From an uncultured Collinsella sp. (GTDB taxonomy: Bacteria; Actinomycetota; Coriobacteriia; Coriobacteriales; Coriobacteriaceae): a stretch of DNA of 28,989 nucleotides. Shown piece by piece: positions 14,296 through 16,312 of this stretch. The stretch covers positions 1 through 28,989 of the forward strand of contig CAKUBM010000029.1 in NCBI GenBank assembly GCA_934643145.1. The letters run 5' to 3'. The notes beneath the pieces were generated by a model. It worked only from the letters and a program-made list of their open reading frames with translations. It was not told the DNA's origin and made no database searches. Position numbers and translations under genes: made by a program. Each line of letters begins with the position of its first letter. Position 1 is the stretch's first letter.

Positions 14296-14324
14296 GGGCC
14301 CGTGCTGGACTTAGTTTTCAGAAC
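14296..14324. repeat. 29-bp inverted repeat, left copy flanking the IS110 element
   Basis: Begins GGGCCCGTGCTGG and ends TTTTCAGAAC. It is a perfect reverse complement of 15978-16006. No direct repeat (target duplication) is seen outside the two copies. It starts 14 nt after the oppF stop. Confidence 0.95.
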
Positions 14325-14330
14325 GTCCTC

Positions 14331-14390
14331 GACCATGGAAACCCCCTTATCCTGCTCCTTCGGAGCTGCGGATAAGGGGGTTTCCTGGTC
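14331..14390. terminator. Strong hairpin at the IS right end (bidirectional terminator-like)
   Basis: Arms 14331-14352 and 14370-14390 pair over 21 bp with one bulge (GACCA...TGGTC outside, GGAAACCCCC...GGGGGTTTCC inside). The tip is GCTCC-TTC-GGAGC (14354-14366). It lies 8 nt beyond the transposase stop. There is no clear T-run on either strand, so it may block transcription into or out of the element rather than act as a classic terminator. Confidence 0.6.
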
Positions 14391-14398
14391 TGACGCTC

Positions 14399-15688
14399 CT
14401 ATTTGGCAAGGTCTTTTTTGGAATTCATTTTTCGCTCCGCCTCGAAGGCCTGCCTGTCCCAATCGAGCGGAAGTCCCGCCTCGACCCATGCCTCGTAGGC
14501 CCTCCTTATGGGCTTCAGGTCCCTTTGGCCCCTCTCCAGCATCGAGATGTACTTCTCGCTGGTTCCGAGTATGGACGCCGCCCTCACCTGGCTGACCTTC
14601 GCCGCGCGCCTGGCCGCCACGAGGGCCGAGGCGTCCTCGGGCCTCCTGATTTCATACGGGTGCATCAGCGCCCGGTACGCCTCCCTGGCCACGTAGCGCT
14701 TGAGGCACCTCATGACCTCCCTGTCGCTCTTCCCCCGCGCCCTGGCCCTATCGGCGTACTCGGCCGTCTCGGGGTCGCGCATGACCCTCTGCCTCGCGAT
14801 CTCGTACAGCGCGCTGTTCGCCTGCCGGTCGCCGCCCCTGTTGAGCCTGTGCCTCACGGTCTTGCCGCTCGAGGCGGGGATGGGGCTGGCGCCGCATATC
14901 GCCGCGAACGACGCCTCGGAGCGCAGCCTGCCCGGGTTGTCCCCGGCGGCCACGGCGAGCTTGGCCGCGCTGACGGGCCCGCACCCGTACATCGCCAGCA
15001 GCGCGGGGCAGTTCTCCTCCAGGGACGCCTCGATCGCGCGCTCCATGTCGAGCGCCGCGTCGCGCGCCGCCGCCCACAGGTCCGCCAGGGCGCCGAGCGC
15101 GGCGCCCAGCGCGCCCTCCGACCGCACGGAGGGGAGCTCCTCCATCAGCCTCGGCCCGCCCATGCCGCGGAACCTCGACCTGAGCCCCTCCGGGGCGGTG
15201 GTGAGCAGCGACCTCGCGGTGTTGATCGCCGAGGTCCGCGCCTTCACCGCCCCGGAGCGAGCCGCGAGCATGCAGCGCACCCCGTCGACCCAGCCGTCCT
15301 GGCTCTTGGGGGTCCCGAGCTTGGAGCCGGACATCGCCGCGCGGGCGGCCCTCTCCGCGTCCGCCTCGTCGCACTTGCCCTGCCCCGGGCGCCTCCTCTG
15401 CATCCTCGCCGGGGAGAGCGCCTCGCGCACGGGCATCCCCAGCGACGCGAGGTGCCTGGTGAGGCCCGCCCCGTAGGACGACGTCCCCTCCATCGCGATG
15501 CAGGCGGGCTCGCCGGCCCCGGCGATGGCCCCGGCGAGAGCCTCGTAGCCCGCCGCGTCGGCGGGGAACTGGCGGGACAGGACCTTGCGGCCCCTCCAGT
15601 CCAGGACGCACAGCCAGTGCGTGTCGGCGTGGGTGTCGACCCCGCAGAAGACCGGCCCGCGGGCGTCGGGTGTCGATTCGGTTCGCAT
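14399..15688 (-). CDS. IS110-family transposase (DEDD recombinase) with C-terminal HTH extension
   Basis: Product of 429 residues. The RuvC-like N-terminal domain shows FCGVDTHADTHW (Asp18), CIAMEGTSSYG (Glu67) and KCDEADAERAA (Asp107, Asp110), the DEDD set. The C-terminal IS116/IS110/IS902 domain shows YGCGPVSAAKLA and GASPIPASSGKT, with the likely nucleophile Ser273 or Ser274. Residues about 356-405 (AARRAAKVSQVRAASILGTS, then EKYISMLERG) look like an added XRE-type helix-turn-helix, not part of the usual IS110 protein. The ATG at 15688 has GGAG six bases upstream; a 59-codon in-frame extension to 15865 has no such site and runs into the non-coding end. Family members are guided by a bridge RNA. 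Confidence 0.93.
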   Translation of the reverse strand: MRTESTPDARGPVFCGVDTHADTHWLCVLDWRGRKVLSRQFPADAAGYEALAGAIAGAGEPACIAMEGTSSYGAGLTRHLASLGMPVREALSPARMQRRRPGQGKCDEADAERAARAAMSGSKLGTPKSQDGWVDGVRCMLAARSGAVKARTSAINTARSLLTTAPEGLRSRFRGMGGPRLMEELPSVRSEGALGAALGALADLWAAARDAALDMERAIEASLEENCPALLAMYGCGPVSAAKLAVAAGDNPGRLRSEASFAAICGASPIPASSGKTVRHRLNRGGDRQANSALYEIARQRVMRDPETAEYADRARARGKSDREVMRCLKRYVAREAYRALMHPYEIRRPEDASALVAARRAAKVSQVRAASILGTSEKYISMLERGQRDLKPIRRAYEAWVEAGLPLDWDRQAFEAERKMNSKKDLAK

Positions 15689-15699
15689 GTCTCGCTCCG

Positions 15700-15970
15700 T
15701 TCTTTCCGTGCTCGCCTGGACCGGGCAGACGGCACACTGACGGGGACGCGATAGAATGCGGTTGTTCGGGTCCGCGGTATCGCTCCATGCTCCTATTAGG
15801 TCATGCGGCGGTCTCGGCTCGCCGCGGGCCGCGCGGGACATGTCAGAAAACGAGGGCAGCCCCATGGGCGCCAGCGGAATGTGGGGTCACCGCGCGGTCC
15901 GCATCTGATGGTGTCGACGCCAATGGTATATGGATACGCCATCGGCGTCTTCAATTCAGAAGATATCAGT
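15700..15970 (-). ncRNA. Candidate bridge RNA in the IS110 left end
   Basis: IS110 elements encode a structured bridge RNA between the left end and the recombinase gene. This 289-bp non-coding end sits in that place and orientation. It holds a hairpin at 15914-15950 (GACGCCAATGGTAT pairing with ATAC-G-CCATCGGCGTC, one mismatch). GCGGAATGT (15874-15882, plus strand) exactly repeats the element's own end (15971-15979), as a donor-guide loop should. Exact ends are not determined. Confidence 0.45.
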
Positions 15971-15977
15971 GCGGAAT

Positions 15978-16006
15978 GTTCTGAAAACTAAGTCCAGCAC
16001 GGGCCC
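15978..16006. repeat. 29-bp inverted repeat, right copy flanking the IS110 element
   Basis: Begins GTTCTGAAAACTAAG and ends CAGCACGGGCCC; perfect reverse complement of 14296-14324. Joined directly, the two copies would give a 58-bp perfect palindrome centred on ACGT. Confidence 0.95.
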
Positions 16007-16187: not shown

Positions 16188-16312
16188 GGGCCGGAATGAG
16201 GTCGCTTTCCAACGCATTCCGCAGGGGGCGGCATTATTTTGTAGCGCGAAGCGCGAATCAAAATAATGCCGCATGCCCGAGGACGCGTTGGAAAGCAACC
16301 TCATTCCGGCCC
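16188..16312. repeat. Long imperfect palindrome (~125 bp), element C
   Basis: Outer arms 16188-16215 and 16285-16312 match at 27 of 28 positions, the odd one being a wobble pair (GGGCCGGAATGAGG...). Inner arms GCGGCATTATTTTG (16228-16241) and CAAAATAATGCCGC (16259-16272) pair perfectly, with AGCGCGAAGCGCGA in the tip. It stands between the IS/opp region and the tRNA-Leu promoter and encodes no credible protein. Confidence 0.85.

Follow-up and report, generated by a model that had tools for sequence, protein, structure and literature searches.

What does the non-coding DNA just upstream of an IS110 recombinase gene in an uncultured Collinsella sp. encode, and how does the element carrying this gene find its insertion site? 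We analyzed a stretch of 28,989 nucleotides (contig CAKUBM010000029.1, positions 1 to 28,989; hereafter the window), in which a preliminary description had proposed that the non-coding left end of an insertion sequence contains the donor and target guides of a bridge RNA. Guide covariation, the RNA fold and held-out models strongly supported this proposal. Very probably, the region belongs to an insertion sequence of the IS110 group, as its left end, and encodes a bridge RNA with guides to the element's own ends and to a host repeat, and the recombinase loaded with this RNA would exchange strands at a CA dinucleotide. The ends, the empty sites, the guide matches, the covariation of the fold and the predicted recombinase fold were all read from the sequence. 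Features lie on the minus strand unless stated otherwise.

Copies at other sites, empty sites and lengths placed the element, with both copies of its core, at 14391 to 15971, a length of 1,579 base pairs (bp) plus the second CA core. The flanks of the window were joined with one CA (132 bases) and compared by BLAST with 30 loci (L075 to L104). In six of these (L076, L083, L085, L090, L091 and L094) the joined flanks matched without gaps over the 132 bases, with 98.5-100% identity, and the uninterrupted site was present at orthologous places in related genomes. Because these empty sites are gapless, the cores are the CA dinucleotides (sense) at 14391-14392 on the right and 15970-15971 on the left. 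The same six loci indicated scarless insertion around a common CA core, with no target duplication. Copies of the element at other places diverged sharply from each other on both flanks. The motif CCGCA stood 5' of the left end in 16 of 16 flank rows, separated from it by an additional CA in L013/L029, and CAG followed the right end in 14 of 15 rows, with L016 as the exception; a few of these rows were the same contig taken twice. The right end comprised 6 bp versus 281 bp for the non-coding left end (15689-15969), to which the fold, the held-out model matches and the alignment assigned the predicted bridge RNA.

These positions corrected several details of the preliminary description. Its 9-base match across the left junction (15971-15979) had been read as the element's own end, copied within the left end; since the left core is 15970-15971, positions 15972-15979 are host DNA. 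The right core lay approximately 55-65 bp inside the end implied by the CCATGG at 14333-14338, and the dinucleotide at the mapped junctions was CA in the sense orientation, not AC. The two CCATGG copies that had been pointed out, one near the right end and one close to the inner copy of the 9-mer, carried no weight because this motif occurs 19 times in the window. The empty-site comparison had been set beforehand as a refuting test. The ends did map elsewhere, yet the guides agree with the corrected positions, and the RNA hypothesis thereby survived.

In agreement with the earlier observation, the window contains two exact same-strand copies of the 9-mer GCGGAATGT and no others, at 15874 and 15971. 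As background, about 0.24% of the window 9-mers outside the left end recur in the left end on the same strand. The target in the sense orientation is CATTCCG-CA-GACC. Because the copy at 15971-15979 is the host target, the one inside the element (15874-15882) represents the left target guide, ACAUUCCGC, which matched the host half-site 15971-15979 at 9 of 9 positions. Guides were present in the left end as had been proposed; the assignment differed, with the recurring 9-mer being a target guide and the donor guides lying at 15789-15797 and 15735-15740. The right target guide, UCUG (15844-15847), is the complement of the target CAGA (positions 8-11). It is contained in the 12-mer ATGTCAGAAAAC at 15840, which is real. 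The likeness of this 12-mer to ATGTTCTGAAAAC, formerly presumed to be the target, was incidental because ATGTTCTGAAAAC lies in the outer stem of the host repeat. The window target carries CAGA; the right half of the target is known for seven other copies, and five of them have CAGG.

Covariation between guides and targets was examined in 38 elements from genomes of the class Coriobacteriia, to which Collinsella belongs; inspection by eye sorted them into 13 lineages. These relatives are a sample, taken from the best-scoring candidates of contig and class-wide scans. For the left target guide, the last 9 nucleotides of the left half of each target were compared with every left end. The summed fit of targets to their own left ends was 105, whereas permutation gave a mean of 83.9 (standard deviation 3.3), and 0 of 100,000 permutations reached this value; this and the following permutation figures are indications and not exact probabilities, because the lineages are related and some have common targets. 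The own target was the row maximum, ties included, in nine of the 13 lineages. Examples of a 9/9 match were L111 (CTGACCTGC), L121 (TACACCAAC), L112 (TTTTCCGTC), L114 (ATTGGGGAC) and L139 (CAACCTGAC). The right target guide was scanned over three stretches in 11 representatives. Its fit was reached by 22 or 38 of 100,000 permutations (two seeds) in the first stretch, which did not cover the guides of lineages K and M, and by 1 and 0 in the other two. The fit of the right donor guide was reached by 29 of 100,000 permutations, and the pairs in relatives included CACCGA with UCGGUG, CTCCGA with UCGGAG and CAGTGA with UCACUG. The predicted RNA loops were complementary to target and donor and covaried with them at the left target guide, the right target guide and the right donor guide.

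A fold conserved among related left ends, on which the preliminary description had staked its reading, was also recovered, with two loops containing covarying pairs in 12 relatives of eight lineages. Fold models for the target loop (R1) and the donor loop (R2) were built from these relatives, and the window lineage was left out. The target loop contained 21 pairs, 14 of them with two-sided changes. Its covariation score was 0.549 versus 0.153 when shuffled (reached by 0 of 500) and 0.097-0.149 when slid. The donor loop contained 17 pairs, eight with two-sided changes, and scored 0.306; shuffling gave 0.115, with 0 of 500 shuffles reaching the score, and sliding gave 0.033-0.149. Each model matched the 29-kilobase window once, R1 at 15813-15906 (61 bits, expect value (E) 2.3e-10) and R2 at 15702-15822 (73.7 bits, E 8.6e-20), both on the minus strand. 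Of 26 further loci, 21 were also recognized by R1 with E values no higher than 1. In the window, the fold and R1 placed the target-binding loop with its stem at 15824-15902, and R2 placed the donor-binding loop with its stem at 15711-15818, the outermost pairs being proposed by eye. Folding further indicated a 5' stem-loop at 15916-15949. The left end folded more stably than its shuffles (z -2.88, with 1 of 200 equally stable). It was nearly invariant among the window and six near copies (99% mean column identity), and a double change in the 5' stem-loop between the window and these copies, C-G to T-A, preserved the pair (by eye).

The donor guides point to the element's own ends. The left donor guide, AAUAGGAGC (15789-15797), is identical to the right-end DNA at 14395-14403, the left donor half-site, which overlaps the recombinase stop codon. 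This guide was recognized by its sequence match to the right end and stood outside the permutation tests. The right donor guide, UCAGUG (15735-15740), is the complement of the left-end donor CACTGA (15966-15971). An excised circle would join the ends as ...AATAGGAGCGT-CA-CTGATAT.... Circle-junction transcription, RNA length, RNA binding and strand exchange are inferred here from IS621 and ISEc21. By this analogy, the joined ends would create a promoter driving the RNA, with a possible -35 TTGCCA (14404-14409) separated by 17 bp from a possible -10 TATCTT (15960-15965), both located by eye. The joined ends of relatives showed TTGAC...GATAAT-like letters (by eye). The transcript, read with the recombinase strand, would be a bridge RNA of about 240 nucleotides, comprising the 5' stem-loop, the target loop (ACAUUCCGC and UCUG) and the donor loop (AAUAGGAGC and UCAGUG). 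The RNA-loaded recombinase would pair the donor loop with its own joined ends and the target loop with the host site CATTCCG-CA-GR, bringing circle and target together. Strand exchange at the common CA would then leave no duplication.

Several observations weigh against the bridge-RNA reading or parts of it. In the left target guide test, the own target was not the row maximum in lineages B, G, J and N, and L028 has a half-site with an extra base, which the 9-mer scan missed. The left target guide of the window lacks the second core base, having U where A is expected. The right target guide pairs over just 4 nucleotides in the window, and its own target was the row maximum in 6, 8 and 9 of the 11 representatives, depending on the scan stretch; in the widest scan, the window's own 5/6 fit came from GGGCTG letters outside the loop. 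The nine other listed copies of the window family all carry CCUG at the place of the window UCUG. Since L131 and L133 combine CAGA targets with a CCUG guide, the correspondence of UCUG-CAGA versus CCUG-CAGG is only suggestive. Compared with its IS621 counterpart, the left donor guide is displaced and shows a mismatch beside the core (by eye), and the -35 of the window is weak. R1 missed five of the 26 other loci (L017, L118, L135, L136 and L140) and was weak in lineages K, M and N. At gathering score, Rfam recognized nothing but tRNAs in the window; when the left end was searched with E values of up to 5, two matches appeared, both at chance level and far below their cut-offs.

The recombinase (429 amino acids, 14399-15688) was recognized from Pfam and NCBIfam matches, alignments and structure comparison. 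It matched PF01548 (8.6e-22), PF02371 (3.2e-17) and the NCBIfam model 'IS110 family RNA-guided transposase' (172.3 bits, cut-off 140). The DEDD residues D18, E67, D107 and D110 were invariant across 18 aligned proteins and across 46. Compared with solved chains, the predicted structure showed the IS621 DEDD recombinase fold. The protein carries an SSG motif (S273-S274). The PDB alignment placed S274 opposite the IS621 serine; S273, not S274, was the invariant serine in the 46-protein alignment. The acting serine may be either one, the two alignments disagreeing. The stop codon falls within the donor motif. A TAG stop inside the donor motif ATAGGAGC was seen in several lineages, at 14395-14403 in the window and in L114, L115, L139 and L142.

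A C-terminal helix-turn-helix region was suggested by Pfam HTH_3 and the structure model at about residues 354-417 (14438-14629), with predicted helices at 354-362, 367-374, 378-385 and 392-403. The window protein matched HTH_3 below the cut-off (5.9e-4). An XRE-type helix-turn-helix was fused to the C-terminus of the IS110 recombinases of L106, L107, L108, L111, L112, L114 and L124, above the Pfam cut-off only in L111 (E 2.8e-8) and L106 (E 5.7e-6) and weaker in the other five. Pfam listed no such match for L139, and the recombinases of L116, L134 and L135 are too short to contain the region. No solved chain covered residues 351-429 among the matches listed, in a structure comparison that hardly tests such parts. 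Among the titles and abstract openings listed from open-licence papers, none described this element or an XRE-fused IS110. The fused helix-turn-helix is, by these profile matches, one twist on the known IS110/IS621 kind, clear in relatives and weaker in the window.

The alternative that survives best concerns this region. The bridge RNA would be real and the helix-turn-helix would also read DNA, dividing target or promoter choice between RNA and protein, which adds to the bridge-RNA explanation and does not replace it. In its favor are the matches above the cut-off in L111 and L106, the model helices between 354 and 403, and the PF01381 or PF13560 label on 84 of the 120 listed matches to the L111 protein. 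By contrast, neither label appeared on any of the 120 listed matches to the window protein, whose own match is below the cut-off, and the RNA guides already explain the sites. On balance we consider such a division of labor rather unlikely. A two-key system of this type, in which an XRE-type domain was added to the bridge-RNA recombinase of the clade, is equally tentative; the RNA might pick target and donor, and the fused domain might repress the circle-junction promoter or hold the enzyme at palindromic host repeats.

A reading of the recurring 9-mer as a donor guide, or as a subterminal repeat belonging to the element's own end, is highly improbable. The 9-mer does touch the junction, its first base (15971) being a core base, but its remaining eight bases belong to the host and were seen in the empty sites, and in other lineages the loop varies with the host target while most donor ends remain ATAGGAGC/CACTGA-like. 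The left end does immediately precede the gene and offers a plausible ribosome site (by eye), but the covariation of guides and fold and the single matches of the held-out models make it scarcely credible that it serves the recombinase gene only as an untranslated leader or an attenuator, with guide matches due to chance.

The target proved to be the constant loop of a REP-like double-hairpin repeat of the host, composed of the constant TCCGCAG and CGAGGACG and of variable stems. The inverted repeat and the empty sites defined the two halves of the interrupted copy, the right half at 14296-14390 and the left half at 15972-16006, and the hairpin at 14337-14385 is part of this repeat. A repeat search revealed an unoccupied copy of the same family beside the element (16188-16312, plus strand), with its own TTCCGCAG target. 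A 29-bp inverted repeat (14296-14324/15978-16006) was considered as the element ends and rejected, as it is the outer stem of the host repeat. A loose repeat pattern gave 320 matches, some of which look coding, versus 69 for the reversed control; they occurred in 41 of 42 genomes of the genus, with up to 17 per genome. A strict subtype gave 60 matches in 21 of the 42 genomes and none in the control. No Rfam family matched the host repeat in the window at gathering score. Since the host site is the constant loop of the repeat, one guide fits many copies per genome, and because the guides match the constant part only, one guide can serve repeat subtypes. This suggests a route of spread, in which the element targets the part of a dispersed repeat that stays constant.

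Judged from its sequence, the element is a new example of the known IS110/IS621 bridge-RNA kind. A bridge RNA is expected for the family, a 2024 paper predicting one for 85.7% of IS110s. IS621 (PMC11208160, PMC11208158) shares with this element the DEDD recombinase fold; a left end encoding an RNA with a 5' stem-loop, then the target loop and then the donor loop; guides that match the bottom strand on their 5' side and the top strand on their 3' side, with a 4-nucleotide right target guide; and insertion into REP-type repeats. The core of IS621 is CT, whereas it is CA here, and the left end quoted for IS621 is 191 bp, in contrast to 281 bp. The 6-bp right end with the stop codon inside the donor motif, the extra C-terminal helix-turn-helix, the host repeat and the guides also differ. 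The ISEc21 seekRNA (PMC11187229) likewise comes from an upstream non-coding region with the bottom-strand match 5' of the top-strand match, and its insertion leaves no target duplication. A circle-junction promoter was shown for ISEc21 and is inferred here; ISEc21 targets IS3-family genes, whereas this element targets a host repeat. The IS1111 group has a related recombinase and RNA-guided targeting, but its RNA lies in a long right end and its subterminal inverted repeats are longer (7-17 bp). Here the right end is 6 bp and the RNA is encoded in the longer left end, as in the IS110 group. Among 16 listed inverted repeats, no pair of at least 12 bp joined the two mapped ends, shorter pairs not being searched. 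For this predicted bridge RNA, which comes from a gut genus, the ends, empty sites and guides are mapped, and the relatives form a natural series whose guides vary in step with their targets. Both can help in the choice of new RNA-guided recombinases, in particular one that combines a CA core, a 6-bp right end and a putative fused DNA-binding domain.

Other features were noted among the relatives. The sister lineage of L116-L119 and L134 targets TTGTCATC-CTGAGCG-like sites in repeated sequence, with a right guide match of 6/6 in L116-L119 and 5/6 in L134. Relatives in L109, L110, L135, L136 and L143 appeared by eye to be inserted in IS3-like transposase genes, a likeness to ISEc21 drawn for L109, L110, L135 and L143. 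In L131, L132 and L133, other insertion sequences appeared to have entered copies of the window IS110, which suggests nested insertion. In L105, the first stretch of the left end was tandemly duplicated.
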